Origin: Micromonospora sp. WMMD812
Lineage (GTDB): Bacteria > Actinomycetota > Actinomycetes > Mycobacteriales > Micromonosporaceae
Reading direction: 5' to 3'
Assembly: GCF_027497215.1 (NCBI RefSeq)
Contig: NZ_CP114904.1
Span: 62,001-126,000, forward strand
Length of the DNA stretch: 64,000 nucleotides
In this document: in pieces, positions 2,279 through 29,802 of the stretch
Layout of the letters: each line of letters opens with the position of its first letter
Position numbering within the stretch: position 1 is the first letter of the stretch
Notes under the pieces: generated by a model
What the model was told of the DNA's origin: nothing
Database searches by the model: none
The model's input: only the letters and a program-made list of their open reading frames with translations
Program-made: the position numbers and the translations under genes

Positions 2279-2309
2279 TTGGTCAACGCCATGCAAGATC
2301 TCGACAAAG
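2277..2309 (+). promoter_or_regulatory. Shared element overlapping the GH87 transcription start
   Basis: In the sense direction this reads CTTTGGTCAACGCCATGCA, then AGATC, then TCGACAAAG. The same blocks in the same order occur upstream of the laccase operon (19552-19594, minus), with an 8-10 base longer gap before TCGACAAA. Here it lies directly after the -10 box, the usual place for a repressor site. The cognate regulator is unknown. Confidence 0.5.
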
Positions 2310-2527
2310 ACGTGCTTGATTCCTTGCACCGGTCTGCAAAGTCGCGAGTGGCCGCCTCTTCGGCGGCCTTTCTCCCTATTGCCACCCCCGCTCCTCGGCC
2401 CCCGGCACCGGACCGGCGCGGGTCCGAAACGCCGACCCTGCCGCGCCACCGCACACTCCACCCGCCGCGCGCCCCCACCCCGTGGCCATGCCACCCGCGG
2501 CACCGTCCCCCGACGACAAGGACAGCG

Positions 2528-5500
2528 ATGAGACGAACCAATCTGCTCAGGATGATGGCGGCGACACTCGCGGCCACGATGATCGTCACGGCAGGGTCGG
2601 CAGCCGTCGCGAACGCCGCCGGCACCCCCGGCCCGGCCGGCGCCACCGCCGCGACGAGCCCCGCCAACGCCCCGGCGGCCACGAACCTCGCCCAGGGGCG
2701 CCCGACCCAGGAGAGCGGCCACGCGGACGTCTACGACTCGTCGAAGGTCGTCGACGGCAACGCGGGCAGCTACTGGGAGAGCGTCAACAACTCCTTCCCC
2801 GGCTGGGTGCAGGTCGACCTCGGCTCGTCGCAGGCCGTCAACCAGGTCGTGCTCAAGCTGCCGACCGCCGGCTGGCCGACGCGTACGCAGACCCTGAGCG
2901 TGCAGGGCAGCGCCAACGGATCGTCGTTCAGCAACCTGGTCGGGCCGCAGACCTACACCTTCAATCCCACGACCGGCAGCACGGTCACCATCACCTTCAA
3001 CCAGACCTCCACCCGCTACCTGCGGATCACCGTCACGGCCAACAGCGGCTGGCCGGCCGGGCAACTCTCCGAACTCGAGGTCTACGGCAGCGGCGGCGGC
3101 ACACCGGACACCACCGCGCCGAGCGTGCCGGGCAACCTCTCCTACACCCAGTCGGGCACCACGATCACCCTCAACTGGGTCGCGTCGACCGACAACCCGG
3201 GCGGCAGCGGCATCGCCGGTTACGACATCTACCGCAACGGCGCGTTCCTCCAGTCCATCGGGAACGTCACCACCTTCAACGACACCCAGCCGGCCACCGC
3301 GACGGTCTCGTACCACGTGCGGGCCCGTGACGTCGCGGGCAACGTCTCCGGCAACAGCAACACGGTGACCCGGACCGGCAGCGGTGACACCATCGCGCCG
3401 AGCGTCCCGGGCACGCTGTCGCACAGCACGTCGGGCAGCACGATTACGCTCACCTGGGGCGCCTCCACCGACTCCGGCGGCAGCGGCCTGGCCGGCTACA
3501 ACGTCTACCGCAATGGCGGCCTCGTCGCGACGCTGGGCACCGTCCTCACGTACCAGGACACCCAGCCCGCGACGGCGACCGTCTCGTACCACGTCCGCGC
3601 CCGCGACGGCGCCGGCAATCTCTCCGGCAACAGCAACACCGTCACCCGGACCGGCACGACGCCCCCCGCCTGCACCAACGTGGCGCAGGGCAAGACCATG
3701 ACGGCGAGCGGCTCCACGTTCACCTACACCCCGGAGAAGGCGAACGACGGGCAGGTCGGCACCTACTGGGAAGGCGCCCCGAGCTACCCGCAGAACCTGA
3801 CCGTGGCGCTCGGCGCGAACCACTCGATCACGGCCGTCACCGTCAAACTGAACCCCGACCCGGCCTGGGGCACCCGCAACCAGACCATCCAGATCCTCGG
3901 CCGCGACCAGGCCTCGTCGACGTACGCCAACCTGGTGTCGGCGGCGAGCTACCAGTTCGTCCAGGGCAACAACGTGGTGAGCATCCCGGTCACCGCGACC
4001 ACCGCCGACGTCCAGCTGCGGTTCACCGCCAACACCGGCGCCCCGTCGGGCCAGGTGGCCGAGCTGGAGGTGTGCGGCACCCCCGCGCCCAACCCCGACC
4101 TGGTGATCGGCTCGACGACCTGGTCGCCCGCGTCGCCCAACGAAGCCACTCCGGTCACCCTTTCGGCCGTGGTCCAGAACATCGGCTCGGCCGCCGCCGG
4201 CGCCACCACGGTGAACTTCAGCCTGGCGGGCACGGTCGTCGGCAGCGCCGCGGTGGGCGCGCTGAACGCCGGTGGCTCCACCACCGTCTCGTTCAACGCC
4301 GGAACCCGGCCGATGGGCAGCTACAGCGTCACGGCGGTGGTCGACCCGACGAACACGATCGTCGAGCAGAACAACGGCAACAACAGCTTCACCGCGGCCT
4401 CGCCGCTGGTGGTCGCGCAGGCCCCGGGTCCCGACCTGCAGGTGCTCGGCATCACCTCCAACCCGCCGAACCCGGCCGTCGGGGCGTCCGTCACCTTCAC
4501 CGTGGCGGTCCGCAACCGTGGTACCACCGCGACCGGCGTCACCACGGTCACCCGACTGGCGGTGGGCGGCACCACGCTCAACACCAACACCGCGTCGATC
4601 GCCGCCGGCACCACGGTCAACGTGGCCATCACCGGGAGTTGGACGGCTACCAGCGGCGGCGCCACCATCACCGCCACCGCCGACGCGACCAACACGGTCG
4701 CCGAGACCAACGAGACCAACAACACGTTCACCCAGTCGATCGTGGTCGGGCGTGGGGCGGCGGTCCCGTACGTCTCCTACGAGGCGGAAGCCGCCCGCTA
4801 CCAGGGCGTGCTGCTGGAGACCGACCCGCTGCGCACCTTCGGGCACACCAACTTCGCCACCGAGTCCTCCGGCCGCAAGTCGGTCCGGCTGAACAGCACC
4901 GGCCAGTTCGTCGAGTTCACCTCGACCAACGCCGCGAACTCCATCGTGGTGCGCAACTCCATCCCGGACGCGCCGGGTGGTGGCGGCATCGAGGCGACGA
5001 TCAGCCTCTACATCAACGACACCTTCTCGCGGAAGCTGACGCTGTCGTCGCGGCACAGTTGGCTCTACGGCAACACCGACGGGCCGGAGGCGCTCACCAA
5101 CACCCCGCAGGCCGACGCCCGGCGGTTGTTCGACGAGTCGAACGCCCTGCTGGCGCAGTCCTACCCGGCCGGTACCCGGTTCAAGCTCCAGCGCGACACG
5201 GGCGACTCGGCCTCGTTCTACATCATCGACACGATCGACCTGGAGCAGGTGGCGCCACCGGCGAGCCAGCCGGCGGGGTGCACCTCCATCACGGCGTACG
5301 GTGCGGTCCCGAACGATGGGCTCGACGACACCGCCGCCATCCAGCGGGCGGTGACCGACGACCAGAACGGAGTCATCGGATGCGTCTGGATCCCGGCCGG
5401 ACAGTGGCGGCAGGAGCAGAAGATCCTCACCGACGACCCGCTGAACCGCGGTCCGCACAACCAGGTGGGCATCAGCAACGTGACGATCCGGGGCGCCGGG

Positions 5501-6499
5501 ATGTGGCACTCCCAGCTCTACACGCTGACCGAGCCGCAGAACGTGGTCGGCGGCATCAACCACCCGCACGAAGGTAACTTCGGCTTCGACATCGACAGGA
5601 ACACCGAGATCTCCGACATCGCGATCTTCGGCTCGGGCCGGATCCGTGGTGGCGACGGCAACGCCGAGGGCGGGGTGGGCCTCAACGGCCGGTTCGGGCC
5701 GGGCACCCGGATCAGCAACGTCTGGATCGAGCACGCCAACGTGGGTGTCTGGGTCGGCCGGGACTACGACAACATCCCCGAGCTCTGGGGCCCGGCCGAC
5801 GGGCTGCAGTTCAGCGGCATGCGGATCCGCAACACCTACGCCGACGGCATCAACTTCAGCAACGGCACGCGGAACTCGCGGGTGTTCAACTCGTCCTTCC
5901 GCAACACCGGCGACGACGCGCTGGCGGTCTGGGCCAACCCGTACGTCAAGGACCGGAACGTGGACATCGCCCACGACAACCACTTCGTCAACAACACCAT
6001 CCAACTGCCCTGGCGCGCGAACGGCATCGCCATCTACGGCGGCTACGACAACTCGATCGAGAACAACCTGGTCTACGACACCATGAACTACCCCGGCATC
6101 ATGCTGGCCACCGACCATGACCCGCTGCCCTTCTCCGGGCAGACGCTGATCGCCAACAACGGCCTCTACCGGACCGGTGGCGCCTTCTGGAACGAGGACC
6201 AGGAGTTCGGCGCCATCACGATCTTCCCGGCGACCCGGGACATCTTCGGGGTCGCCATCAGGGACACCGAGATCTCCGACTCGACCTACGACGGCATCCA
6301 GTTCAAGAACGGCGGCGGCAACGTCCCGAACGTCGCCATCACCAACGTACGCATCGACAAGTCCAACAACGGCGCCGGCATCCTGGCCATGGGCGGCGCC
6401 CGGGGCAGCGCGACCCTGAACAACGTGACCATCACCAACTCGGCCGACGGCAACATCGTGATCCAACCGGGGTCGCAGTTCGTGATCAGCGGAAGCTGA
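2528..6499 (+). CDS. Secreted multidomain alpha-1,3-glucanase (mycodextranase, GH87-type)
   Basis: A 1323-residue exported enzyme. The ATG at 2528 is chosen because a signal peptide follows at once (MRRTNLLRM..., cleavage near ANAAGT, about residue 34). Domains in order: discoidin/F5-8C-like module (about 45-185), two fibronectin type III domains (192-280, 284-375), a second discoidin-like module (378-515), two CARDB Ig-like domains (521-625, 632-735), a CBM6/35-like module (745-915), and a right-handed beta-helix catalytic domain (918-1323). The catalytic part has NDGLDDTAAIQ, GAGMWHSQLYT and NTGDDALAVW, the Asp-rich signature I associate with GH87. Members cut alpha-1,3-glucans such as fungal wall glucan or bacterial mutan. 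The binding modules suggest an insoluble target. It is monocistronic, with its own promoter and a shared upstream element. Confidence 0.82.
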   Translation: MRRTNLLRMMAATLAATMIVTAGSAAVANAAGTPGPAGATAATSPANAPAATNLAQGRPTQESGHADVYDSSKVVDGNAGSYWESVNNSFPGWVQVDLGSSQAVNQVVLKLPTAGWPTRTQTLSVQGSANGSSFSNLVGPQTYTFNPTTGSTVTITFNQTSTRYLRITVTANSGWPAGQLSELEVYGSGGGTPDTTAPSVPGNLSYTQSGTTITLNWVASTDNPGGSGIAGYDIYRNGAFLQSIGNVTTFNDTQPATATVSYHVRARDVAGNVSGNSNTVTRTGSGDTIAPSVPGTLSHSTSGSTITLTWGASTDSGGSGLAGYNVYRNGGLVATLGTVLTYQDTQPATATVSYHVRARDGAGNLSGNSNTVTRTGTTPPACTNVAQGKTMTASGSTFTYTPEKANDGQVGTYWEGAPSYPQNLTVALGANHSITAVTVKLNPDPAWGTRNQTIQILGRDQASSTYANLVSAASYQFVQGNNVVSIPVTATTADVQLRFTANTGAPSGQVAELEVCGTPAPNPDLVIGSTTWSPASPNEATPVTLSAVVQNIGSAAAGATTVNFSLAGTVVGSAAVGALNAGGSTTVSFNAGTRPMGSYSVTAVVDPTNTIVEQNNGNNSFTAASPLVVAQAPGPDLQVLGITSNPPNPAVGASVTFTVAVRNRGTTATGVTTVTRLAVGGTTLNTNTASIAAGTTVNVAITGSWTATSGGATITATADATNTVAETNETNNTFTQSIVVGRGAAVPYVSYEAEAARYQGVLLETDPLRTFGHTNFATESSGRKSVRLNSTGQFVEFTSTNAANSIVVRNSIPDAPGGGGIEATISLYINDTFSRKLTLSSRHSWLYGNTDGPEALTNTPQADARRLFDESNALLAQSYPAGTRFKLQRDTGDSASFYIIDTIDLEQVAPPASQPAGCTSITAYGAVPNDGLDDTAAIQRAVTDDQNGVIGCVWIPAGQWRQEQKILTDDPLNRGPHNQVGISNVTIRGAGMWHSQLYTLTEPQNVVGGINHPHEGNFGFDIDRNTEISDIAIFGSGRIRGGDGNAEGGVGLNGRFGPGTRISNVWIEHANVGVWVGRDYDNIPELWGPADGLQFSGMRIRNTYADGINFSNGTRNSRVFNSSFRNTGDDALAVWANPYVKDRNVDIAHDNHFVNNTIQLPWRANGIAIYGGYDNSIENNLVYDTMNYPGIMLATDHDPLPFSGQTLIANNGLYRTGGAFWNEDQEFGAITIFPATRDIFGVAIRDTEISDSTYDGIQFKNGGGNVPNVAITNVRIDKSNNGAGILAMGGARGSATLNNVTITNSADGNIVIQPGSQFVISGS

Positions 6500-11650: not shown

Positions 11651-12628
11651 CTAGAGGCCGGCGTCGCCGGCCGCCGCGGCCTCCTGCACCGCCGAGGTAC
11701 GGCGGGCCTGTGCCCGCTGCTCTCCGGCGTCCTCCCGGTCCGGGGCCGCCGCGATCCGGGCCGACCGGGCGTTCGCGCCGGCCTGCTCACCGGTCACGCC
11801 ACCGCGGATCCGGTTGTTCGCCGCGACCTGGGCGACCGGGTTGTTGGACGTCACGGTCAACCGGCCGTCGATGATGTTGTCGTCGACGGTGACACCGCCG
11901 GTGGTGTTGGTGATGCTGACGTCCCGACCCCAGTAGCCGCCCGACGCGCAGCCGTCGAGGACGCCGTTCGGGCCCACCTGCACACCGCCCAGGTTGCCGG
12001 AGAAGGTTGCCTGACCGCGGACCGCGCTGCCGCACACCACGCTGCCGGTGGTGCTGTTGAGCACCGACAGCGTGCCGTCGACGAACGAGTCGTGCACGTC
12101 GGTGTAGTAGGTGCCGGTGCTGCTGACGTTGCGCTCCACCTGCGTGCCGCGGTCCAGCCGGACCTCGCCGGCCTGGACGTTGACGTGCCCGGCGATCGTC
12201 GACCCCTCCACGAACAGGAAGCTGTCGACGGTCGCGGAGCCCTTCGGCCGCACCGTCACCGTGCCGGCCGTGGCGTCCTTGAGGAAGGCGCCGTACCCAC
12301 CGGCGGCCAGGACCACCTGGCCGCCGATGGTCGTGTCGGTGGCGTCCAGGTAGCCGTCCGCGGCGACACGTACCTCGCCGCTGACCCGTCCACCGGAGAC
12401 GACCAGGTTGCCGCCGGCGGCGACGCTGACGTTTCCGGTGATCGTGGTGCCGGTGAGCGCGCAGGACTCGCCGGCCGGGACGTACAGATCGTTGGGCACC
12501 GTCACGGCACCGCCGGTGCCGATGCAGTAGGTGACCAGGTCGGCGTGTGCGCTGGGCGCCACGGCCAGCACCGAGACGGCGACGACGGCGCTCACGGTGG
12601 CCAGCTTGGCGACGGTACGTCTGGGCAT
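11651..12628 (-). CDS. Secreted beta-helix/bactofilin-like repeat protein
   Basis: 325 residues; last gene of the laccase operon, 32 bases after the cupredoxin gene. The ATG at 12628 has GGGAG upstream and begins a signal peptide (MPRRTVAKLATV... SAHADLV). The mature protein consists of repeats of about 20 residues of the form GNVSVAAGGNLVVSGG, GEVRVAADGYLDATD, GQVVLAAGGYGAFL, as in polymer-forming beta-solenoids (bactofilin style). The last 60 residues are Ala/Arg-rich. A few Cys are present near the start and at about residues 210-240. No catalytic residues were seen. By analogy it could be a surface scaffold for the operon's other secreted proteins, but that is inference. Confidence 0.6.
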   Translation of the reverse strand: MPRRTVAKLATVSAVVAVSVLAVAPSAHADLVTYCIGTGGAVTVPNDLYVPAGESCALTGTTITGNVSVAAGGNLVVSGGRVSGEVRVAADGYLDATDTTIGGQVVLAAGGYGAFLKDATAGTVTVRPKGSATVDSFLFVEGSTIAGHVNVQAGEVRLDRGTQVERNVSSTGTYYTDVHDSFVDGTLSVLNSTTGSVVCGSAVRGQATFSGNLGGVQVGPNGVLDGCASGGYWGRDVSITNTTGGVTVDDNIIDGRLTVTSNNPVAQVAANNRIRGGVTGEQAGANARSARIAAAPDREDAGEQRAQARRTSAVQEAAAAGDAGL

Positions 12629-12660
12629 CGCTGTACTCCCTGTCGATGAGGTTCGATGAC

Positions 12661-14466
12661 TCATGCGCCGACGTCCGATCGGGCCGCGGCCCGGACGATG
12701 GCGCCCTGCTGGCGCTTGGTCAGCGTGCCGCCGCTCACGAGCGCGGCGGTGACCGTCTCGACGTGCCGGACGAAGGCGGCGTGCCCCGGGTAGTCGGCGT
12801 GTTCGTCGATCAGGTCGTTGATGGTGCAGCCGTTGCCGGTGTCGGCGTTGGCCACCCCGGTGTCGTCACCGTCGATGATCACCGTGTCCCGGCTGTCCGA
12901 GCCGGGGCAGGCGTCGGAGCCGTCGACGACCACGGTGAACGTCGTCGTCTGTTCGGCGGAGGTGTTCCCGGCGGTGTCGGTGGCCCGGTACCGCAGGGTG
13001 TGCGCGCCGGCGGCCTGGACGCCGACCGGACCGGTGTACGCGGTCCAGGCGCCGGTGTCGAGGGCGTACTCGATGGACGTGACGCCCGATTCCGCGTCGG
13101 TGGCCGTGACGGTCACAGTGGCGCGGCCGATGTACGCCCCGTTCTCGTCCTGGTCGCCCGTGATCGTGGCGGTGGCCACGGGCGGGGTGGTGTCCTCGGC
13201 CGGCGGGGGGACGACGGTGAACGTCGTCGACTGTTCGGCGGAGGTGTTCCCGGCGGTGTCGGTGGCCCGGTACCGCAGGGTGTGCGCGCCGGCGGCCTGG
13301 ACGCCGACCGGACCGGTGTACGCGGTCCAGGCGCCGGTGTCGAGGGCGTACTCGATGGACGTGACGCCCGATTCGGCGTCGGTGGCCGTGACGGTCACGG
13401 TGGCGCGGCCGATGTACGCCCCGTTCTCGTCCTGGTCGCCCGCGACCGTGGCGGTGGCCACGGGCGGAGTGGTGTCCTCGGGTGTTGCGGCGACGACGGT
13501 GAAGTGGGCCATCTGCTCCGCCGAGGTGTTCCCGGCGACGTCGGTGGCCCGGTAGTGCAGCATGTGCATCCCGACGTCGTCGACCACGACCGGTGCGGTG
13601 TACGTGGTGAAGGCCGCCCCGTCCAGCGAGTACTCGATCGTCGCGACCCCGGACTGGGCGTCGTTGGCGGTCAGCGTGGCGGTGGCCGTACCGATGTAGT
13701 TGCCGTCGCCGTCCCGGTCGCCTGCGATGTCGGCCGTGACCGTCGGCGCGGTGGTGTCCTCCTCGCCCGGCTCGACGATCCGGAACGACACCGAGCCGAC
13801 CGCGCTGGTGTTGCCGGCCTGGTCGGTGGCGCGGAACTGCACCGAGTGGTCACCGATCGCGGTGACCTGCACCGGGGCGGTGTACGGCTGGAAGCTGGTG
13901 TCGTCGATCTGGTACTCGACGGTGTCCACGCCCGACCCGGCGTCGGTGGCGGTGACGGTCACCGTGGCCGCGCCGACGTAGTTGCCGTCCTGGTCCTGGT
14001 CGCCCGCCACGCTGGCGGAGACCTCGGGTGGCGTGGTGTCGCCACCTCCGCCGTCGGTGACCACCAGTTCGCCGACCATCTGGCCGTGACCGGGAATCGA
14101 GCAGAAGTAGCGGTAACGGCCTGGTGTCAGGGTCACGGTCGCCTGGTGCCGCCCGTCGTTCGCGTCGAACGGGCTGGCCAGGATGTTCAGCGTGACGTCG
14201 TGGTTGTAGCCCTCCGTGCTGGTGTCGAAGGTCAGCGTGTGCGGCATCCCGGTGGTGTTGCCGGTCGCCGCGCTGTTCTCCCAGATGATCGTGGTCTCGC
14301 CGGCCACCGCCTGGGTGGGCGCGGACTTGTAGCGGGTGATGTCGTCGTCGGCGGTCCAGGTCAGCACCTGCGCCGCCGCCCGCGGGGCGGCGGACGCGGG
14401 TGCCGTGGCCGACGGGAGCACCGCGAGCAGGAGCACCGCCAGCGCGGCCGTCAGTCTTCGGGTCAT
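12661..14466 (-). CDS. Secreted cupredoxin with four Ig-like repeats and a C-terminal module
   Basis: 601 residues. A signal peptide (1-27) is followed by a plastocyanin-like cupredoxin domain (about 33-137) with a complete type-1 copper set: His76 (GMPHTL), Cys122, His127 and Met130 (FCSIPGHGQM). Four Ig-like 'chitobiase/OmpL47-type' repeats follow (about 145-525), each with TVTVTATDAxSGV and HTLRYRATDxAGNTS. The last two are almost identical in DNA as well. The C-terminal 75 residues (from about 527) form a module that recurs in the next protein upstream in the operon. The start lies 8 bases after the ThuA/dehydrogenase gene, so the two are tightly coupled. Probable role: extracellular one-electron carrier. 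The electron partners (dehydrogenase, laccase) are inferred from the operon. Confidence 0.85.
   Translation of the reverse strand: MTRRLTAALAVLLLAVLPSATAPASAAPRAAAQVLTWTADDDITRYKSAPTQAVAGETTIIWENSAATGNTTGMPHTLTFDTSTEGYNHDVTLNILASPFDANDGRHQATVTLTPGRYRYFCSIPGHGQMVGELVVTDGGGGDTTPPEVSASVAGDQDQDGNYVGAATVTVTATDAGSGVDTVEYQIDDTSFQPYTAPVQVTAIGDHSVQFRATDQAGNTSAVGSVSFRIVEPGEEDTTAPTVTADIAGDRDGDGNYIGTATATLTANDAQSGVATIEYSLDGAAFTTYTAPVVVDDVGMHMLHYRATDVAGNTSAEQMAHFTVVAATPEDTTPPVATATVAGDQDENGAYIGRATVTVTATDAESGVTSIEYALDTGAWTAYTGPVGVQAAGAHTLRYRATDTAGNTSAEQSTTFTVVPPPAEDTTPPVATATITGDQDENGAYIGRATVTVTATDAESGVTSIEYALDTGAWTAYTGPVGVQAAGAHTLRYRATDTAGNTSAEQTTTFTVVVDGSDACPGSDSRDTVIIDGDDTGVANADTGNGCTINDLIDEHADYPGHAAFVRHVETVTAALVSGGTLTKRQQGAIVRAAARSDVGA
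12932..13477. repeat. Two near-identical tandem repeats of about 264 bp inside the cupredoxin gene
   Basis: 12932-13195 and 13214-13477 are direct repeats with a 282-base period (94 codons) and only a handful of differences. They encode Ig-like repeats 3 and 4. The other two repeats in the gene are much more diverged. This points to a recent internal duplication, or to gene conversion keeping the pair alike. Confidence 0.85.
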
Positions 14467-14474
14467 GGTCGCTC

Positions 14475-17400
14475 CTAGAGATCCCGCACGCGGATGTTGC
14501 GGAACTCGATCAGGTCGTTGTCACCGTGGTTCTGCAGCCCGACGAAGCCGCGGAGGAACTGCCGCAGATCGGTCGGCGGGTCACCGGCGCGGGAGGACTG
14601 CTTGCCCGGCGTGTTGTCGAACTCGTTGATCACCACTCCGTTGCGGATGATCGTGTAGTGCTGGCCGACCGCCCGGATCTCGTAGTCGTTCCACTGGTCC
14701 TTCGGGGTGACGCCGGCCTGGGCGAGCGGCACCGGGTCGAAGTTGTAGACCGAACCGGTCTTCTGCGGCTCGCCGGTCTCACCGTCGTAGATCTGGATCT
14801 CGTGCCCGCAGTAGATGGCCACCCACGCGGGTGAGGTCCGGGCCGATCCGACGGTGCCGCAGCTGCCGGGCGGGCGCTGGTCCAGCGGGATCCGCGGGTC
14901 CGGGAACCGGATGAAGACGCCGCTGTTGGCCCGGCCGGTGTCCGGCGCGATGTCGCGGAACTGCAGCTTCAGCGAGAAGTCGCCGAGTTCCTTGGTGTGC
15001 CAGAGCATGCCCAGGCCGCCGCTGGAGCGCAGTGACCCGTCAGGCTGGATGCCGAACTGCCCGGACGGGGCCTGCTGCCAGCCGCGCAGCGACTCGGCGG
15101 TGCCGTCGAAGAGCGGCTCGTACCCGGTGTGCCCGCCTCGGCCGATGTCGGACGCGGCGGCCAGCCGGGTCAACGTGCCCGCTTCGCGGCCGGTGAGCAG
15201 GCCGTCGCCCTGCAGCGCGCGGGCGACCGCGGTGACGTGTCGCACGAAGCTGTCGTGGTCGGGCCAGGTGCTCTCGTCGTCGATCAGGTCGTTGGCGGTG
15301 CAGCCCTGCCCGACCGTACGGCTGGGCACCCCGGTGTCGGTGTCGCCGAGCCACACCGTGTCCCGGCCGTCCGGCGCCGCGCAGCCCACCGTGACGGTGG
15401 TCTGCACCGTCGCCGTCTGTCCGTCGGCGTAGGTGACGGTCAGCTTCGCGGTGTAGGTGCCGACCCGGGCGTACGTGTGGCGCGGGTTCGCCTCGGTCGA
15501 CGTGGCGCCGTCGCCGAACTCCCACCGGTGGCTGACGCCGCCGGAGCGGGAGCCGGTGAACGCGATGGTCAGCGGCTTGTTCTGGACGGCCACCGACGTC
15601 GCGGCCGGCGCCGGGGTGGGCGCGCCACCGGTGTAGGTGATCCGGATCAACTTCTGGTTGGGGTGCAGGCTGAAGAAGCCGCCGCCGTAGTCCAGCAGGT
15701 AGAGCGCGCCGTCCGGGCCGAACTTGGCGTCCATCCAGCTCTGCAGCCGGGTGTCCCCGCTGCCGCTCGGGATGATCGCCCGCAGCGACTCGGCGTACAC
15801 CGGCGGGGCCGCCTGCGGCACGCCGGCCGGGTCGACGGTCACCGCGACGCGGTTGTTGGCGTTCGACTGGTCGCCGATGAACCACTTGTCGTCCCAGTAC
15901 GCCGGCCAGGCCACGGTGCTGTTCGGGTCGACCCGGTCCCGGTGGTAGGTCGGACCGGACATGATGGCCTGGCCGCCGCCGCGCAGGTAGGGCTGGGTGT
16001 AGGTGGCGTCGGCGGCGACGTAGGTCGGGAGTCCGCTGCCGTCGGCGCGCTTCGGGAAGATCGGGCCGCCGCCGTCGGGGGAGTACCAGATCATGTTGTC
16101 CCGGGCCGGTGGGATGTTCACCAGGCCGGTGTTGCGCGGCGACTCGTTCTTCAGGTTGTCGCAGTCGTACCAGCCGGTCAGCACCGTCGCGTCGGTGTTG
16201 CTGCGGTCACGGTAGGGCTGCCGGTTGCCCATGCAGTACGGCCAGCCGTGGTTGCCGGCCGAGGTGATGATGGTCGCCGTCTCGTACTTGGCCGGGCCGA
16301 GGGTCGGGCTGGGCGACGAGGCGTCCGGGCCCACCCATCCGGCGGTCAGCCACTGGCGCTCCGGGTCGATCTGCAGGCGGGCGATGTTGCGGACGCCCAT
16401 CACGTAGATCTCCGGCCGGGTCTTCTCGGTGCCCGGCGGGAACAGGTTGCCCTCCGGGATGGTGTACGTGCCGTCCGGCTCGGGGTGGATCCGGATGATC
16501 TTGCCGGCCAGGTCGTTGGTGTTGCCCGAGGTCCGGCGCGCGTCCTGGAACGAGATCCCCTGGTACTCCTGGGTCCAGTTGTTGCCGGAGTAGCCCTGCG
16601 ACCCCTCGGACGAGTTGTTGTCTCCGGAACCCACGTACAGGTTGCCCTTGTCGTCGAAGGCCATCCCGCCGCCGGCGTGGCAGCAGCTGTGGATCTGCAC
16701 CGGGAACTGCAGCAGGTCCTTGCGGGTGGCCTGGTCGATGGTCTGCGCCTCGCGGTCGTAGGTGAACCGGGAGATGGTGCGCTGCCCGACCCGCTGCACC
16801 CGGTCGATCGACTCGTGCGGCATCCAGTAGACGTAGAGCCAGCCGTTATTCGCGAACGCGGGGTCCGGCACGATGCCGAGCAGGCCCTCCTCGTTCTTCA
16901 CCAGTTCGGAGCCGCTGCCCCGGTTGCCCATCACCTCGAGCGTGGTGAGCAGCTTGACCTGCTTGGTCTGCGGGTCCCAGGAGTGGACGGTGCCGCAGCC
17001 CAGGCCGACGTTCGGGTTGTTCCAGTCGGCGATCGGGCCGGTCGGGCAGGCCGCCTTGCCGACGTAGAAGACCGTGCCGTCCGGCGCGATGGTGAGACCG
17101 TGCGGCTCGCCGATCTGGTCCAGCTGCCCGGTCTGGTTGGCCGCGGTCAGCCGCTCCACCTTGTAGTTCGCCGCGATCGTGGCCTGGCAGTCGCCGCGCA
17201 GCCGCCCGGTGGTCCAGTTGAGGGCGCCGGCCAGGTGCGTACGGAACGCGTCCTCGCCGTAGCTGCCCTCGGTGTGGCCCATGCCGGTGTAGAACGACCG
17301 GCCGCCGTCGTAGTCCCGGCACCAGGACACCGGGTGGAACGGGCCGTTGGCGCCCGGTCCCGGGTTGTAGTGCCGCTCCTCGACCTGGGCGAGCGTGTGC

Positions 17401-18407
17401 ACGGTGCCGATCGGGCTCGGGTCCCAGTTGTCCCAGCGGTCCGAGCGGGTGAGCGTCATCGGCAGCGACGCCGTGGCCGGGTGGTTGCGGTCCAGGATGT
17501 TGACCACCGTCTGGTTCACCGGGGGCAGTTCGGGGGCGGTGGTGCTGCCGGTGAACAGCCGCAGGTCGGCGAGTTGGGTCAGCGGCTCGCCGCTGTTCGC
17601 GGTGACGTTCAGCCGGAAGTGCCGGAACTCCTGCGGGGTGGCGATGTCGAACCGGCGGGTCTGGAACCGCTCCGCGAAGCTCTGGCCGGTCCGCCGGTCC
17701 ACGTCGGACCAGGTCTGCCCGTCGGCCGAGCCCTGCAGCGTCCAGTCCTTCGGGTCCCGGCCGGGGGAGTCGTTGGCCGAGGTGAGGGCGTATCCGGTGA
17801 TGCGCTTCGGCGCGCTCAGCTCGTACGCCACCCACGCCGTCGGGGAGCGCGCGAGCCACTTGGTGTTGGCGTCGCCGTCGGTCAGCTTCTCCTTGGTCTC
17901 GTTCGGCGGGTTCTCGCCCGAGGCGGTCACCCGGGCCACGGGCTCGGCGACCGGGATGGCGCCGGCCGGTCGGGTGCCGATCAGCCCGGTGAACCAGGTG
18001 GAGTCGACCTGCGCGCGGGCGGCGTCGGCGATGCCGACGAACCCGCCGCCGGACTTCATGTAGGTCTGCAACGCCGTTTCCTGCTCACGGTTGAGCGTGG
18101 CGCCGGTCGCGGAGAGGAACACCACGCTGCGGTACGCCGCGAGCCCGGCCGTGGTGAACACGGCCGGGTCGGTGGACTCCGTGACGTCGATGTCGTGGTC
18201 CGCGGCGAGATCCTTGATCTCCGCCGTCGCGCGGGCCACCGGGTCGTCCTGCTCGGCCGCGGGGCCGTGGAAGACGAGGACCTTGATCGGGTCCGGTGGT
18301 GCCGCCTTCGGCGCGGCCGCCGGCGCGGCGGCCATCGCCGCCGAGGCCGGCAGGAGTGTGGCGATCGCCGCGATCGTGGCGAGGGTTCGTCGTACGTTTC
18401 TGGTCAT
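14475..18407 (-). CDS. Secreted ThuA / sugar-dehydrogenase propeller / PKD / DUF1080 fusion
   Basis: 1310 residues. The ATG at 18407 is preceded by GGAGGG and opens a signal peptide ending near AAMAAA. Domains in order: ThuA-like fold (about 40-155 and 290-402) split by a discoidin/F5-8C module (157-287); glucose/sorbosone-dehydrogenase type beta-propeller (about 416-927, with EPHGLTIAPDG, HSCCHAGGGMAFD, LAGKIIRIHPEPDG, FGPDGALYLLDYG); PKD domain (935-1005, EFGDGATSTEANPRHTY); a module of about 80 residues shared with the cupredoxin protein (1007-1090); and a C-terminal DUF1080/3-keto-disaccharide-hydrolase lectin-like domain (1095-1310). It probably oxidises sugars at the cell surface, perhaps cleaving the 3-keto product with the DUF1080 part. 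Cofactor and substrate are not visible. It lies between laccase (20-base gap) and cupredoxin (8-base gap). Confidence 0.85.
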   Translation of the reverse strand: MTRNVRRTLATIAAIATLLPASAAMAAAPAAAPKAAPPDPIKVLVFHGPAAEQDDPVARATAEIKDLAADHDIDVTESTDPAVFTTAGLAAYRSVVFLSATGATLNREQETALQTYMKSGGGFVGIADAARAQVDSTWFTGLIGTRPAGAIPVAEPVARVTASGENPPNETKEKLTDGDANTKWLARSPTAWVAYELSAPKRITGYALTSANDSPGRDPKDWTLQGSADGQTWSDVDRRTGQSFAERFQTRRFDIATPQEFRHFRLNVTANSGEPLTQLADLRLFTGSTTAPELPPVNQTVVNILDRNHPATASLPMTLTRSDRWDNWDPSPIGTVHTLAQVEERHYNPGPGANGPFHPVSWCRDYDGGRSFYTGMGHTEGSYGEDAFRTHLAGALNWTTGRLRGDCQATIAANYKVERLTAANQTGQLDQIGEPHGLTIAPDGTVFYVGKAACPTGPIADWNNPNVGLGCGTVHSWDPQTKQVKLLTTLEVMGNRGSGSELVKNEEGLLGIVPDPAFANNGWLYVYWMPHESIDRVQRVGQRTISRFTYDREAQTIDQATRKDLLQFPVQIHSCCHAGGGMAFDDKGNLYVGSGDNNSSEGSQGYSGNNWTQEYQGISFQDARRTSGNTNDLAGKIIRIHPEPDGTYTIPEGNLFPPGTEKTRPEIYVMGVRNIARLQIDPERQWLTAGWVGPDASSPSPTLGPAKYETATIITSAGNHGWPYCMGNRQPYRDRSNTDATVLTGWYDCDNLKNESPRNTGLVNIPPARDNMIWYSPDGGGPIFPKRADGSGLPTYVAADATYTQPYLRGGGQAIMSGPTYHRDRVDPNSTVAWPAYWDDKWFIGDQSNANNRVAVTVDPAGVPQAAPPVYAESLRAIIPSGSGDTRLQSWMDAKFGPDGALYLLDYGGGFFSLHPNQKLIRITYTGGAPTPAPAATSVAVQNKPLTIAFTGSRSGGVSHRWEFGDGATSTEANPRHTYARVGTYTAKLTVTYADGQTATVQTTVTVGCAAPDGRDTVWLGDTDTGVPSRTVGQGCTANDLIDDESTWPDHDSFVRHVTAVARALQGDGLLTGREAGTLTRLAAASDIGRGGHTGYEPLFDGTAESLRGWQQAPSGQFGIQPDGSLRSSGGLGMLWHTKELGDFSLKLQFRDIAPDTGRANSGVFIRFPDPRIPLDQRPPGSCGTVGSARTSPAWVAIYCGHEIQIYDGETGEPQKTGSVYNFDPVPLAQAGVTPKDQWNDYEIRAVGQHYTIIRNGVVINEFDNTPGKQSSRAGDPPTDLRQFLRGFVGLQNHGDNDLIEFRNIRVRDL

Positions 18408-18427
18408 CCCCGTGCACCCTCCTTCAG

Positions 18428-19432
18428 TCAGCTGCCGTGCTGGTGGGTGTGGCCTTGGAACCGGTGGATCGCCTCCTCCGCGCCGGGCGGCATGCTGCCG
18501 TCGGCGTTGCGCACCAGGAAGAGCCCGACCATGCCGCCGTCGGAGTGGGACTGCACGTGGCAGTGGTACATCCACGCCCCGGGCCCGACGCCCTCGCCGG
18601 CCAGCACCTGGAAGCCGAACGAGCTGCCCGGGTTGAGGTCCTTGTTGTCGATCACGTGGCTCGGGTCGCTCGGGCCCTCGAGCATCCCGGTGCGGTTGTC
18701 CGCCCACCGGTGCGCGTGCAGGTGGAAGGTGTGGAAGAGGCTGCCGTGCCCGATCGCGATCCACTCCACCCGCTGGCCCAGGTTCGCCTCGAACATCGGG
18801 GTGTCCGGGGCCATCCTGTTGTTGATCAGCATGTCGTTGAACACGACGGTGAACTGCTTCTCCGGCAGGATGTCGCCGCGGCGCCGGACGATCAGCGCGC
18901 CGTACAGCCCCTTGGCCACCCCGGCGCTGCCGTGGTCGGTGCCCATCGAGTGGTCGTGGTAGTGCCAGTAGCCGGCGCTGCCTGGCATGAAGCGCCGACC
19001 CGCCGCGGCGAACATCTCCCGGGAGCGCCACACGTACGTCCGGGTCTCGCCGGGGTTGTTGAACGAGGCGTTGAGCGGGCTGCCGTCCGAGTCGGTGCTG
19101 TAGTCCACCCCGTGCGGGTGGATGGACAGTCGCTGGTTGGTGGTGTTGACCAGGGTGATCTCGAGCGTGTCGCCCTCGTACATCTCCAGCACCGGACCCG
19201 GCACGGTGGCCTGGCCGGGTGCCAGGCCGTACCCGAACAGCCCGCCGGGCAGCTGCTCGGCGTAGAGGGTGATGCGCTTCGTGGCGCCGGTGCCGGCCCG
19301 CGCCGGACTCCCGGCGAACGGGTTGCCGACCGTGGGCGCGGCCACGCCCAGCGCTCCGGCGGCCAGCACGCTGGTGGTCATCAGGGATCTGCGGGACAGG
19401 TGGCGGGGGGAGCCGACAGCATGGTCGTCCAT
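18428..19432 (-). CDS. Two-domain small laccase (multicopper oxidase)
   Basis: 334 residues, the length and layout of the Streptomyces small laccase (SLAC). All copper motifs are present: HPHG (His105, His107), WHYHDH (His157, His159), HTFHLH (His234, His237, His239) and HCH...H....M (His290, Cys291, His292, His296, Met301). The T1 copper therefore has a Met axial ligand, and the trinuclear site forms between subunits of a trimer in this family. A twin-arginine signal (SRRSLMTTSVLAAGALG) exports the folded enzyme. The C-terminal tail is His-rich (HRFQGHTHQHGS). The ATG at 19432 follows GGAG. First gene of a four-gene operon; it would reduce O2 to water with electrons from phenols or, by inference, the operon's cupredoxin. 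Confidence 0.93.
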   Translation of the reverse strand: MDDHAVGSPRHLSRRSLMTTSVLAAGALGVAAPTVGNPFAGSPARAGTGATKRITLYAEQLPGGLFGYGLAPGQATVPGPVLEMYEGDTLEITLVNTTNQRLSIHPHGVDYSTDSDGSPLNASFNNPGETRTYVWRSREMFAAAGRRFMPGSAGYWHYHDHSMGTDHGSAGVAKGLYGALIVRRRGDILPEKQFTVVFNDMLINNRMAPDTPMFEANLGQRVEWIAIGHGSLFHTFHLHAHRWADNRTGMLEGPSDPSHVIDNKDLNPGSSFGFQVLAGEGVGPGAWMYHCHVQSHSDGGMVGLFLVRNADGSMPPGAEEAIHRFQGHTHQHGS

Positions 19433-19551
19433 GGAACTCCGTTCACGCCCGAGCAGGTCGCGACAGGGCAGGGTGCGGCGACCGTCGACAGCAGGAGTCG
19501 GCCCCCACGCGTCCGTGACCTCGTCGCGGACTTCTCTCGGATGAGTCAGAA

Positions 19552-19594
19552 CTTTTGTCGAACGACGAAAATCTATGTATGGCATTGACGAAAG
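19552..19594 (-). promoter_or_regulatory. Shared element and promoter region of the laccase operon
   Basis: Read on the minus strand: CTTTCGTCAATGCCATACA, then TAGATTTTCG, then TCGTTCGACAAAAG. It matches the element at 2277-2309 upstream of the GH87 gene block for block. TTTACT, a 17-base spacer and TAGATT overlap it as a plausible promoter. TTTTGTCG and CGACGAAAA (19553-19571) also form an imperfect palindrome. The whole segment is conspicuously AT-rich compared with its surroundings. The leader to the laccase ATG is about 120-150 bases. Confidence 0.5.
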
Positions 19595-19855
19595 TAAAGA
19601 TCTGCTTACGAAAAGACCGGCTCTTGCCAGGGACGCGGTGGCGTGATCAGCAGGTTGCGGTCGCGCCCTGGCGGAGGCAAAGGGCGGCGCCCGCGTGCGA
19701 GACGGACGAGAGGCGTCGCGCGCGGCGCCCGCGGTTCGCCGACGTCGCGGCGCGACGTCGGCGTCAGCCTGCCGTCGGTCTGGCGGAATTGTGGCAAGCG
19801 TCGGTCAGCGAAGCAGCCGGCCGCGTTCGGCCGGACCCCGAAGGCTCTCCGGTGT

Positions 19856-19874
19856 TTAGGTTAGGCTAACCTGC
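19856..19874 (+). promoter_or_regulatory. IdeR/DtxR iron box before the ABC exporter genes
   Basis: TTAGGTTAGGCTAACCT (19856-19872) reproduces the left 17 of 19 positions of the IdeR consensus. It lies 32 bases before the GTG of the first ABC gene. Iron-replete repression of the downstream genes is the expected consequence. Confidence 0.85.
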
Positions 19875-19905: not shown

Positions 19906-21627
19906 GTGGCGGACGACGAGATCACCACCGGCAGCGTGCTGCGCCGCGCCCTGCGCCGCCAGCGTGGCCGGGTGCTGGCCGGCATCGTGCTGCTCTGCCT
20001 CCACCAGGCCACCGAGGCGCTCGTCCCGGTCGCCATCGGCGTCGTCATCGACCGTGCCGTCGCCACCGGGGACGTCCGTACGCTGCTGCTCTCCCTCGCC
20101 GGTCTCGCCATCCTCTTCACCGTCCTCGCCTTCGCCTACCGGACCGGCGCACGTCACGCGTACGCCGCCGTCGAACGGGAGGCGCACCTCTCGCGGGTCG
20201 AGATCGCCGGGCGGGCTCTCGACCCGCGCGGACACCGGTCGGGCCTGCGCGACGGTGAGCTGCTCGCCGTCACCGCCTCCGACGCGGAGCTGTCCGCGCT
20301 GGTCGTACGGGTCGCCGGGCTCACCGCGGCGGCGTTCACCGCCCTGCTCGTCGCCGCCGTCGCGCTACTCATCGTCGACATCCCGCTCGGGCTCGGCGTG
20401 CTCGTCGGCGTACCCCTGGTGGTCCTCGCCCTGCACCGCATGGCGCCGCTGCTCACCCGACGCGGCGCCGCACAGCAGGAAGCGCTCGCCGTCACCACCG
20501 CGCTCGCCGTCGACCTCGTCGCCGGCCTCCGCGTGCTGCGCGGCATCGGCGCCCAGGACCACGCGGCACGCCGCTACGCGGGCGCCAGCCGGCACGCCCT
20601 CGACGTGACGCTGCGCGCCGCCACCACCAAGGGGCTGCACCTCGGGCTCACCACCACCGTCAACGGTCTCTTCCTCGCGGCGGTCGCCGGCGTCGCCGGC
20701 TGGCTCGCACTACAGGGCCGGCTCACCATCGGCGAACTCGTCGCCGTCGTCGGGCTCGCCCAGTTCGTCGCCGAGCCGGTGCAGACGCTCGGATACTGCG
20801 TACAGCTGTTCGCCATGGCCCGGGCCTCCGCGGGACGGGTCGCGCGGGTCCTCGGCGCCCCGCCGCTCATCCGGCCGGGCACCGCCGGCCCGCCGGCCCC
20901 GAGCCCGTCCCGGCTCGCCCTCGACGCGGTCACCTACGCCGGGCTCGACGGAGTCTGCCTGCAGGTCCGGGCCGGTGAGGTCCTGGGCGTGCTCGCCTAC
21001 GATCCCGCCGAGGCCGAGGCGCTGGTCGCGCTGCTGTCCGCCCGCGTGTCCCGGGACGACTACCAGGGGACGCTGTACGTCGACGGCGTGCCCGCCGACG
21101 AGCTGCACATCGACGCCATCCGCAGCACGCTGTTGGTCGAGCCGCACGACGTGGCGTTGTTCGAAGGGACGCTGCGCGCCAATCTCGCCGCCGGGGCGGA
21201 GGTCGAGGGAACCGAGGTCGAGGAGAAGGTCCTCCGCGACGCGGTGCGGGCCGCCGCGGCCGAGGACGTGCTCGCCGCGCACCCGGACGGCATCGACCGC
21301 GTGCTCACCGAGCGGGCAGCCAACCTGTCCGGCGGGCAGCGGCAGCGAGTCGGGCTCGCCCGGGCCCTTCTCGCCGACCCGCCGGTGCTGGTGCTGCACG
21401 ACCCCACCACGGCCGTCGACGCGGTGACCGAGGCGCTGCTCGCCGACGGGGTGGCCGCCGCCCGCGCGAGCGCCGCCCGCGGCACGGTGGTCATCACCCA
21501 CAGCCCCGCCCTGCTGCGGGTCACCCATCGGGTCGTCGTGATCGACCGCGGCCGCGTCGTCGCCGAGGGCTCCCACGAGCACCTCCTCGCCAGCGACGCC
21601 CGCTACCGGGAGGAGGTACTGCGGTGA
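19906..21627 (+). CDS. ABC exporter half-transporter with a degenerate ATP site
   Basis: 573 residues: a type IV exporter membrane domain (about 1-310, six hydrophobic helices) and a nucleotide-binding domain (about 325-573). The Walker A position reads VLAYDPAEAEALVAL, with no GxxGxGKS/T. The Q-loop has Glu for Gln (LVEPHDVALF), and the residue after the Walker B Asp is Pro instead of the catalytic Glu (VLVLHDPTTAVD). The LSGGQ signature and H-loop (ITHS) are intact. It can therefore supply only the signature half of an active site. The GTG start is kept; the next gene overlaps by four bases, which fits an obligate heterodimer. Iron-box control suggests siderophore export, or import of an Irt type (inference). 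Confidence 0.85.
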   Translation: MADDEITTGSVLRRALRRQRGRVLAGIVLLCLHQATEALVPVAIGVVIDRAVATGDVRTLLLSLAGLAILFTVLAFAYRTGARHAYAAVEREAHLSRVEIAGRALDPRGHRSGLRDGELLAVTASDAELSALVVRVAGLTAAAFTALLVAAVALLIVDIPLGLGVLVGVPLVVLALHRMAPLLTRRGAAQQEALAVTTALAVDLVAGLRVLRGIGAQDHAARRYAGASRHALDVTLRAATTKGLHLGLTTTVNGLFLAAVAGVAGWLALQGRLTIGELVAVVGLAQFVAEPVQTLGYCVQLFAMARASAGRVARVLGAPPLIRPGTAGPPAPSPSRLALDAVTYAGLDGVCLQVRAGEVLGVLAYDPAEAEALVALLSARVSRDDYQGTLYVDGVPADELHIDAIRSTLLVEPHDVALFEGTLRANLAAGAEVEGTEVEEKVLRDAVRAAAAEDVLAAHPDGIDRVLTERAANLSGGQRQRVGLARALLADPPVLVLHDPTTAVDAVTEALLADGVAAARASAARGTVVITHSPALLRVTHRVVVIDRGRVVAEGSHEHLLASDARYREEVLR

Positions 21628-23531: not shown

Positions 23532-23596
23532 CGGGACGCCCGAACGGCGGGGTGCGGTGAGGCTGATCATGCCATCTAGCCAACGGGCGCAACTTT

Positions 23597-23613
23597 GTTT
23601 AGCCTAACCTAAC
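23597..23613 (+). promoter_or_regulatory. IdeR/DtxR iron box before the siderophore-binding protein gene
   Basis: GTTTAGCCTAACCTAAC carries a perfect right half of the IdeR consensus (GCCTAACCTAA) and a weaker left half. It is 49 bases upstream of the ATG at 23662. It gives the uptake genes their own iron-responsive promoter, separate from the exporter pair. Confidence 0.75.
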
Positions 23614-28413: not shown

Positions 28414-29709
28414 CTACCGCGGCAGGAGTCGGAACGACTGTGCGGCGCTGCCGTTGCAGCTGTACTGCACCAGCTGGACGCTGTCGGCGGTGGAGCCGCC
28501 CGGTACGTCCAGGCACTTGCCGCTGAGCCGGTTGACCAGCCGGTAGTAGCCGTCGGCCTCCGGTACCGCCTGCCACTGCTGGTTGTTTCCGCCGCTGTAG
28601 GTCCAGAGCTGGATCGGCGCGTTGTCGGCGGTGGACACGTTCGTCACGTCGAGAGCGCGGGCGCTGTTGTTGCGGTTGTTCACCCGAACGTGGCCGCCGC
28701 TGGTGGGCTGGAACTGGTACTGCTGGGCGTAGGTCGTGTTGCAGGCGTACTGCTGGATCGCGGTGCCGTTGGCGGTGCCGGCGGCCCGAGCGTCGACGCA
28801 CTTGCCGCTGCCCCGGTTGACCAGGCTGTACCAGGCGGTCGGGGAGATCGGGTCGGAGGGCGGGGGAGTGCCGCCACCGCCGCCGAGCCACAGCAGTCCG
28901 TCGATGAGGAAGTGGTTCTGCACCTCACTGGCGAATGTGGACGACAGCGGCACGTCGTTGTCGTAGTCCATGGCGTTGTGGCCGAAGTTCGCGTACAGCA
29001 TCTTGTAGCCGGTGTTGGTCCACATGATCGGGTAGTAGCCGCTGTACCAGGTCTGGTTCGGGTCGGTGCCGAGGGGGAAGCTGCTCGGGTCGACCGAGGC
29101 GAGGATGGTGATGTTCGGGTTGGTCCGCAGGTCGCGGCTCCAGCTGTACCACTCGCTCACCGACGAGGTGAAGGTGGCGGGCAGGCGGACGGTGGACGGG
29201 TGGGTCCGGTTCTCGACCCGCAGTACCGCGGTGGTCGGCCCCCAGGTGTTGGACTGGAACGCGCCGGTGCCGAGGAACTGGTTGTGGTACCAGTCCCAGC
29301 CGCCGGGGTTGGTGGTGAACGCGGAGACGTGGAAGCCGAGCCACGCGCCACCGCCCCGCATGTACTGCTCGAACGCCGGGCGCTGGGCAGCCGGCGGCAG
29401 GTCGTCGAGGAAGATCACCACCTGGTACTGGGCCAGGTTGGCGGCGTTCAGCCGACTCCAGTCGTTGGTCGCGGTGTAGGAGAAGTTGTGCTGCGCGGCG
29501 ATCTGCGGGAACCACTGGTTGGCTTCCCGGACGAAGCTGATGTGGGCCGGGTCCCAGGTGCCGTTGTAGAAGGCGATCACGTTGAAGGCGGGGGCCGCGG
29601 CCCGGGCGTTGCCGTGGGCGGGCGGGGCGAAGACGGTCACCAGCGCCAGGCAGAGCGCGAGGAACTGGGCCACCCTTCGGGTCACGGTGCGGCGGGTGCG
29701 GGCGATCAT
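28414..29709 (-). CDS. Secreted ThuA-domain protein with ricin-type (CBM13) lectin domain
   Basis: 431 residues. The ATG at 29709 begins a signal peptide (MIARTRRTVTRRVAQFLALCLALVTVFAPPAHG). The ThuA-like glutamine-amidotransferase fold is at about 40-285 (FNVIAFYNGTWDPAHISFVREAN, VVIFLDDLPPAAQRPAFEQYM, GGGAWLGFHVSA). A Pro/Ser linker follows, then a ricin B beta-trefoil at about 300-431 with repeated GKCLDV and Q-x-W-type motifs (NNQQWQ). ThuA proteins are linked to 3-keto-sugar metabolism (trehalose in rhizobia); here a carbohydrate-binding role on the cell surface is likely, but the reaction is unknown. The gene has its own consensus promoter. It is the second ThuA protein of the window, the other being in the laccase operon. 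Confidence 0.85.
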   Translation of the reverse strand: MIARTRRTVTRRVAQFLALCLALVTVFAPPAHGNARAAAPAFNVIAFYNGTWDPAHISFVREANQWFPQIAAQHNFSYTATNDWSRLNAANLAQYQVVIFLDDLPPAAQRPAFEQYMRGGGAWLGFHVSAFTTNPGGWDWYHNQFLGTGAFQSNTWGPTTAVLRVENRTHPSTVRLPATFTSSVSEWYSWSRDLRTNPNITILASVDPSSFPLGTDPNQTWYSGYYPIMWTNTGYKMLYANFGHNAMDYDNDVPLSSTFASEVQNHFLIDGLLWLGGGGGTPPPSDPISPTAWYSLVNRGSGKCVDARAAGTANGTAIQQYACNTTYAQQYQFQPTSGGHVRVNNRNNSARALDVTNVSTADNAPIQLWTYSGGNNQQWQAVPEADGYYRLVNRLSGKCLDVPGGSTADSVQLVQYSCNGSAAQSFRLLPR

Positions 29710-29773
29710 GGCGCGTCCTCTCCGTGTCGTCGCGTCGGCGGGGGCGTCCGGCTGCGGCGCGGCGATCGATGAG

Positions 29774-29802
29774 ACGCTATGTCTGACGGGAACTTGTGTC
29801 AA
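29774..29802 (-). promoter_or_regulatory. Consensus promoter of the ThuA-ricin gene
   Basis: On the minus strand: TTGACA (29797-29802), a 17-base spacer, TAGCGT (29774-29779). The upstream stretch 29803-29890 is the most AT-rich of the neighbourhood. It contains a near-palindrome around CGATATCG (29843-29856) and a TTAGGCAACTTACGAG segment, which could be operator sites for a sugar-responsive repressor (inference). Confidence 0.7.

Follow-up and report, generated by a model that had tools for sequence, protein, structure and literature searches.

The locus described here lies in Micromonospora sp. WMMD812, within a 64,000-nucleotide stretch of DNA (the window; positions 62001-126000 of a single 7.13-Mb contig). 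It consists of four adjacent genes, all on the minus strand, which encode a small laccase (SLAC), a multidomain protein built around a GSDH-type propeller (the GSDH protein), a cupredoxin and a beta-solenoid protein. The intergenic gaps are 20, 8 and 32 bases. The features, in window coordinates, are as follows:

18428..19432, minus strand: small laccase (SLAC type, two-domain), 334 amino acids, by Pfam and PDB match
14475..18407, minus strand: protein of ThuA, F5/8C insert, GSDH propeller, PKD, X domain and DUF1080, 1310 amino acids
17583..17930, minus strand: F5/8 type C (discoidin) domain inside the ThuA domain, amino acids 160-275, by Pfam and PDB match
15633..17195, minus strand: GSDH propeller core, amino acids 405-925, with an HSCCH motif at amino acids 573-577
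15132..15386, minus strand: X domain copy 1, amino acids 1008-1092 of the GSDH protein
14484..15125, minus strand: DUF1080 / 3-keto-disaccharide hydrolase domain, amino acids 1095-1308, Pfam E 1.4e-35
12661..14466, minus strand: cupredoxin (type-1 copper ligands H76, C122, H127, M130) with four OmpL47-type repeats, 601 amino acids
12667..12909, minus strand: X domain copy 2, at the C-terminus of the cupredoxin protein, 49% identity, E 4.5e-20
11651..12628, minus strand: beta-solenoid protein with a C-terminal helix, 325 amino acids, by structure model; a lineage-specific add-on
19551..19595, minus strand: promoter-like element ACTTTCGT-N30-CAAAAGT, upstream of the laccase gene

All four proteins begin with a hydrophobic, export-like N-terminus, as read from the sequence rather than from a signal-peptide program, and the leader of the laccase is twin-arginine (Tat)-like (SRRSLM). 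A simple hydropathy scan found no later membrane-like stretch in the four proteins, and no LPxTG-like motif was found. The preliminary description of this DNA had proposed four same-strand genes with these gaps, each with its own export signal, encoding a SLAC-type laccase, a sugar-dehydrogenase propeller fused to ThuA and DUF1080 domains, a type-1 cupredoxin and a beta-solenoid protein; this is borne out by the coordinates, the N-termini, the Pfam matches and the solenoid model. Its account of both copper proteins as complete is upheld by the motif counts given below. The F5/8C insert, the OmpL47-type repeats, the X domain and the loss of the HAASD-type His of ThuA are features beyond that description.

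The laccase carries the Pfam domains Cu-oxidase_2 and Cu-oxidase_3. Its nearest solved chain is 3t9w (E 7.4e-134), and the top solved matches are small or two-domain laccases aligned over nearly the full length. The copper motifs HxH, HxH, HxxHxH and HCHxxxH...M, whose assignment to the individual coppers we assume, are complete in all 31 aligned family sequences. The protein thus belongs to the two-domain small laccases, the group of SLAC from S. coelicolor (SCO6712) and CjSL from Catenuloplanes, and laccase activity is predicted. In a Streptomyces-type locus (L154), the laccase matches 3cg8, which we take to be the S. coelicolor SLAC, with 615 bits over 306 residues; it is a close homologue and probably the orthologue. 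Two further ideas were abandoned. Laccases of Amycolatopsis operons were considered as orthologues of 3t9w; the search for locus L133 was empty at a threshold of 1e-130, and an origin of 3t9w in such a locus is not claimed. The other locus type has WWYHDH in place of WHYHDH, and the idea that a type-3 copper ligand is lost there was also dropped, as the ligands are the HDH pair, for which the fungal laccase motif WYHSH offers a parallel.

The cupredoxin passes the Pfam Copper-bind cut-off narrowly (23.2 vs 21.2 bits). Its His, Cys, His and Met ligands do not vary across 127 of 127 sequences, a set that comprises the window copy and those from 126 of 130 loci, some of them duplicates. At E<=0.001, the X domain occurs twice in the whole genome, once in the GSDH protein and once in the cupredoxin protein. 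No family of Pfam or NCBIfam matches the fourth protein at E<=0.01. It models as a beta-solenoid of short strands in stacked coils over approximately residues 31-285, followed by a C-terminal helix (pLDDT, the predicted local distance difference test, 85.7). Foldseek returned no PDB match to this model at E<=0.001. The top rows were beta-helix lyases and other solenoids, with TM-scores by query length of 0.14 to 0.34 in most; an enzymatic role was rejected, and no function is claimed for the solenoid because of these low scores and the absence of a match at that threshold.

In the GSDH protein, the Pfam order is ThuA, split by the F5/8C domain, then GSDH, PKD, X and 3-keto-disaccharide hydrolase. 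The ThuA match (PF06283) lies in two stretches flanking the insert, and the PDB match of the insert is the discoidin-like part of a GH92 mannosidase. The propeller has the fold of the GSDH and pyrroloquinoline quinone (PQQ) enzymes, and its same-fold matches include the AA12 pyranose dehydrogenases 6h7t and 6jt5. The propeller residues were placed by profile alignment to the soluble glucose dehydrogenase (sGDH) of Acinetobacter, and 17 sequences were used to judge invariance. His577 aligns with the catalytic His144, Arg673-Asn674 with Arg228-Asn229, and Gly704-Pro705 with the calcium ligands, the roles of these sGDH residues being assumed here; each is kept in 17 of 17. A vicinal pair, Cys575-Cys576, stands directly before His577 (window 16677-16685 for amino acids 575-577) and is likewise invariant in all 17. 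The same pair before a catalytic-type His was seen in two ThuA-GSDH paralogues of the same genome (L001, L002).

The DUF1080 domain is full-length, covering positions 1-187 of 187 of the PF06439 profile. Its fold matches include BT2157 (3osd), a 3-keto-glycoside eliminase/hydratase (8rr2) and 8tda, whereas the sequence profile reaches only 3imm, 3s5q and, weakly, 3h3l. The domain has the fold of the solved 3-keto-glycoside eliminase/hydratases, and this activity is predicted.

The conservation of the gene set was surveyed in 81 genomes of the family, with a threshold of E<=1e-50 for the small laccase. The laccase gave 32 matches in 30 of the 81, and these same 30 genomes are the ones that hold the full-length ThuA/GSDH/DUF1080 protein; a thirty-first genome (G005, 69% complete) holds only fragments of the latter. 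The genes for the laccase, the GSDH protein and the cupredoxin are adjacent in 29 of the 30. These 29 differ in layout. Eleven genomes have the window order of laccase, GSDH protein, cupredoxin and solenoid, and seventeen have the cupredoxin protein, a laccase-like oxidase and the GSDH protein; G053 alone has GSDH protein, cupredoxin and laccase. In the seventeen-genome layout the cupredoxin protein ends with a DUF1080-type match, strong in 16 and weaker in L053. The 32 laccase matches include two additional copies, G053:C6:52978 and G072:C3, that are not close to the full-length GSDH gene. The solenoid, at >=66% identity, is present in 11 of the 81 genomes and always with the other three genes. 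At E<=0.001, some solenoid match is seen in 25 of the 81; four weaker matches (29-38% identity) were inspected and none of the other three genes lay nearby, and ten further matches are weak and partial. The solenoid belongs to one sub-lineage.

Outside the family, the best 80 of 410 confirmed relatives of the GSDH protein in named genomes were used, with stretches of up to 10 kb on either side. The genera among these 80 include Micromonospora, Actinoplanes, Dactylosporangium, Virgisporangium, Saccharothrix, Umezawaea, Kibdelosporangium, Amycolatopsis, Actinophytocola, Prauserella and Streptomyces, with others. Both the laccase and the cupredoxin lie within the fetched stretch in 79 of the 80 loci; at the exception (L145) the contig starts 12 bases before the match, and neither is found in the 9 kb downstream. 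One record titled Rhodococcus rhodnii (L112) matches Kibdelosporangium persicum (L111) in locus length and layout and may be mislabelled. In a class sample of 148 genomes (laccase E<=1e-50, GSDH protein E<=1e-150), the small laccase was found in 22 genomes and the GSDH protein in 21, adjoining the laccase in 21 of 21.

In the named Streptomyces loci L128, L132, L136 and L141, the full-length GSDH protein adjoins the laccase and the cupredoxin is divergent. Six genomes, probably Streptomyces, form a group (f19) in which a shorter ThuA-GSDH gene runs divergently from the laccase gene, with cupredoxin and DUF1080 following it; in L154 and L158 of this group, a ThuA-GSDH protein of 827-831 amino acids accompanies a cupredoxin-DUF1080 fusion of 758-763 amino acids. 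Tandem pairs of small-laccase genes divergent from a cupredoxin gene, with no GSDH gene in the fetched stretch, were also noted at L160, L162 and L164.

The pooled set numbers 136 loci, among which are duplicates (L036 and L073, for example, are one contig) and L173, a 3-kb piece of the window genome. Of these, 128 have all three of laccase, GSDH protein and cupredoxin. DUF1080 was present in 130 of the 130 pooled stretches that hold the GSDH protein. Depending on the lineage, it is carried by the GSDH protein, the cupredoxin protein or both, and such switching between proteins is a classic sign of likely partners in one process. Distance correlations over the pooled loci gave Mantel r values of 0.51 to 0.66, which include duplicates and shared ancestry and are descriptive only. 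The arrangement is beyond chance because it recurs in many actinomycete genera. The preliminary description had named a lack of conservation of the gene set in relatives as a refutation, and conservation was found across actinomycete families.

The module is almost certainly a real functional unit. That its proteins form one secreted functional set, as had been proposed, is strongly supported by the conservation, the domain swapping and the shared X domain. This suggests that the small laccase works in an extracellular sugar-oxidising team and not alone. The proposal is that the genes, inherited together, encode a secreted copper-redox module whose targets are glycosides or glycans outside the cell. 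Using PQQ that is scavenged, or a different cofactor, the propeller would oxidise a sugar hydroxyl, and the electrons would pass to the type-1 cupredoxin, then to the laccase and finally to O2. DUF1080 would cleave or hydrate the resulting 3-keto sugar, the X domain common to the GSDH and cupredoxin proteins would bring both to the same place, and the solenoid and OmpL47 repeats may be scaffold or surface parts. Two copper proteins with intact sites are kept together with a PQQ-type propeller and a domain of keto-sugar type, and such a chain is the simplest way to read this combination. The full path from sugar to O2 is nonetheless put forward tentatively, at somewhat under an even chance. More doubtful is a specific form of it, in which the laccase is the terminal oxidase of the secreted chain and the oxidised glycoside is broken down by DUF1080. 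The cofactor might then be an unusual one, or the two vicinal Cys residues beside the catalytic His might act as a relay.

Several observations weigh against the electron path. With regard to gene content, G008 holds the full-length GSDH gene on a separate contig from the laccase, and it is a diverged ThuA-GSDH gene that lies close to its laccase and cupredoxin. The twenty-second genome of the class sample (G096) has laccases without a GSDH protein at the cut-off, and eight of the 31 laccase matches in that sample lie outside a GSDH locus, six of which adjoin a cupredoxin only. The solenoid is missing from 19 of the 30 family locus genomes. With regard to the proteins, the cupredoxin protein has no PDB sequence match, the propeller model falls under a pLDDT of 50 in several stretches, and HHIP, a binding protein, is a same-fold relative of the propeller.

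The ThuA domain of the window lacks the GFRH and HAASD-type motifs that are present in the ThuA paralogues of its own genome (L001-L003). All 11 family sequences of the window layout have lost the His of the HAASD-type motif, which 19 of 20 others retain. In the wider set, none of the 58 parsed solenoid loci has this His, against 32 of 63 parsed loci of other kinds; 9 of the 130 loci were unparsed, and duplicates are included. The loss of the GFRH motif and of this His indicates that the ThuA domain is probably not catalytic here. The loss of the His tracks the presence of the solenoid (L036-L065, L073-L178), possibly as one ancestral event.

The cofactor evidence also appears to oppose the easy form of the chain. 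The basic PQQ clamp of sGDH is presumably Arg408, Arg406 and Lys377. Met892, invariant in 17 of 17, falls on Arg408 in a marginal stretch of the alignment (-3.2 bits; 1.4 against 2ism), and loss of the PQQ-contact Arg is likely. PqqE exceeds the cut-off in 12 of the 81 family genomes, yet in only one of the 30 locus genomes (G053); among 20 further locus genomes there was again one (G153). With PqqE in 2 of 50 locus genomes, and 48 of 50 without it at the cut-off, including the window genome, PQQ made by the cell is unlikely in most hosts. External PQQ is a possible source, since an aldose dehydrogenase of S. coelicolor was crystallised with PQQ (PDB 3das title). Of the chain claimed in the preliminary description, the conserved copper sites and the DUF1080 fold speak in its favour; the apparent loss of Arg408 (marginal), the rarity of PqqE, the lost ThuA motifs and the rare solenoid do not.

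An alternative is a targeted phenol oxidase, in which the laccase acts on phenolics such as lignin or humic phenols with the cupredoxin as mediator. The GSDH propeller, discoidin, PKD and DUF1080 domains would then serve just for carbohydrate binding, to bring the oxidase to polymers of plants. Small laccases oxidise phenolics (PMC3918160) and are reported to act on lignin (PMC10108450), and the apparent loss of the PQQ-contact Arg, the rare PqqE and the lost ThuA His would suit non-catalytic roles. However, the invariance of the CCH, Arg-Asn and Gly-Pro residues of the propeller is beyond what binding alone would seem to need, and DUF1080 accompanies every pooled GSDH stretch; this explanation is somewhat less likely than the electron path. 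Less probable still is a hyphal surface or developmental module, in which hyphae or spores carry an extracellular matrix of glycan or protein that the laccase cross-links, and the solenoid, OmpL47 repeats and X domain are structural. EpoA, a laccase-like protein of S. griseus, is reportedly tied to morphogenesis, the hosts are, to our knowledge, largely filamentous actinomycetes, and the solenoid has no significant PDB match, but the domains for sugar chemistry have been kept. Metal handling, by a ferroxidase or an oxidase that detoxifies copper and is tied to iron-related neighbours, is very improbable. The neighbourhood does contain iron-box-like sites (19856-19874 and 23594-23612) together with heme oxygenase and FecCD uptake genes; nevertheless, not one of the 37 fetched family stretches (L036-L072) or of the 80 named loci showed a heme oxygenase, and the GSDH and DUF1080 domains would have no evident part.

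The two iron-box-like palindromes have 2-3 mismatches to the iron-box consensus. The site at 19856-19874 precedes a divergent ABC exporter pair and that at 23594-23612 a periplasmic-binding-protein/FecCD uptake operon; by eye, a similar TTAGGGTTACCTAAG lies upstream of heme oxygenase. Iron regulation of the operon was rejected because the former site is nearer the divergent ABC gene start at 19906 and heme oxygenase is not a conserved neighbour. The promoter-like element upstream of the laccase has the inverted arms ACTTTCG and CGAAAGT. A strict regular expression finds it ahead of the laccase gene in 24 of 80 sequences (the window and 23 others). The window form is the sole match in its genome, with none in the reversed control. 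A sigma-70 scan yielded no promoter-like sites, and three terminator-like sites were found vs 2.7 expected. Elsewhere in the window, a large protein with alpha-1,3-glucanase catalytic, CARDB and discoidin domains is encoded at 2279-6499, and a second ThuA protein, encoded at 28414-29802, has a lectin domain of the ricin type fused to it.

In the catalogued literature, no description of the module was found among the matches listed. No paper there joins a small laccase with ThuA, GSDH or DUF1080, which is not proof of absence, and the excerpts of PMC9007349, PMC12705666, PMC10108450, PMC3918160, PMC8612252, PMC10628242, PMC7036934 and PMC8236229 give no link of small laccases to these partners. 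Within that range, the earlier statement that no system with this set had been described holds. SLACs are handled as stand-alone enzymes, and conserved partners go unmentioned in the excerpts of PMC12705666, PMC10108450, PMC3918160, PMC7036934 and PMC8236229. One close known system is the LacABC and DUF1080 pathway for lactose and 3-keto-glycosides with BT2157 (PMC9007349, in part), where a sugar dehydrogenase is encoded near DUF1080, as here. The LacABC dehydrogenase is membrane-bound, whereas a secreted propeller protein with cupredoxin and laccase is present in this locus. From the PQQ aldose dehydrogenases and other GSDH proteins (3das, 2g8s, 3a9g, sGDH), the window protein differs by the apparent Met at the Arg408 position (marginal alignment), the vicinal Cys pair before the His and the fusion to ThuA, PKD and DUF1080, and its hosts differ by the general lack of PqqE. 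The PQQ-type propeller fold is common to the window protein and the AA12 pyranose dehydrogenases. The latter are fungal partners of copper lytic polysaccharide monooxygenases, and the Coprinopsis enzyme is cytochrome-linked. We know of no association of AA12 enzymes with a laccase or DUF1080.

Work on small laccases spans approximately twenty years and has mostly treated them as phenol oxidases with applied uses; what they do in nature appears to be unsettled. Across several actinomycete families, the small-laccase gene is kept beside the genes for a GSDH propeller and a cupredoxin, and with DUF1080; because it is kept beside these partners, its native substrate and electron donor become directly testable. 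Should the electron path be true, it would represent an extracellular, respiratory-like chain of copper proteins in Gram-positive bacteria. Glycan oxidation outside the cell would then have a system of a new type, and laccase technology would gain a natural set of partners.
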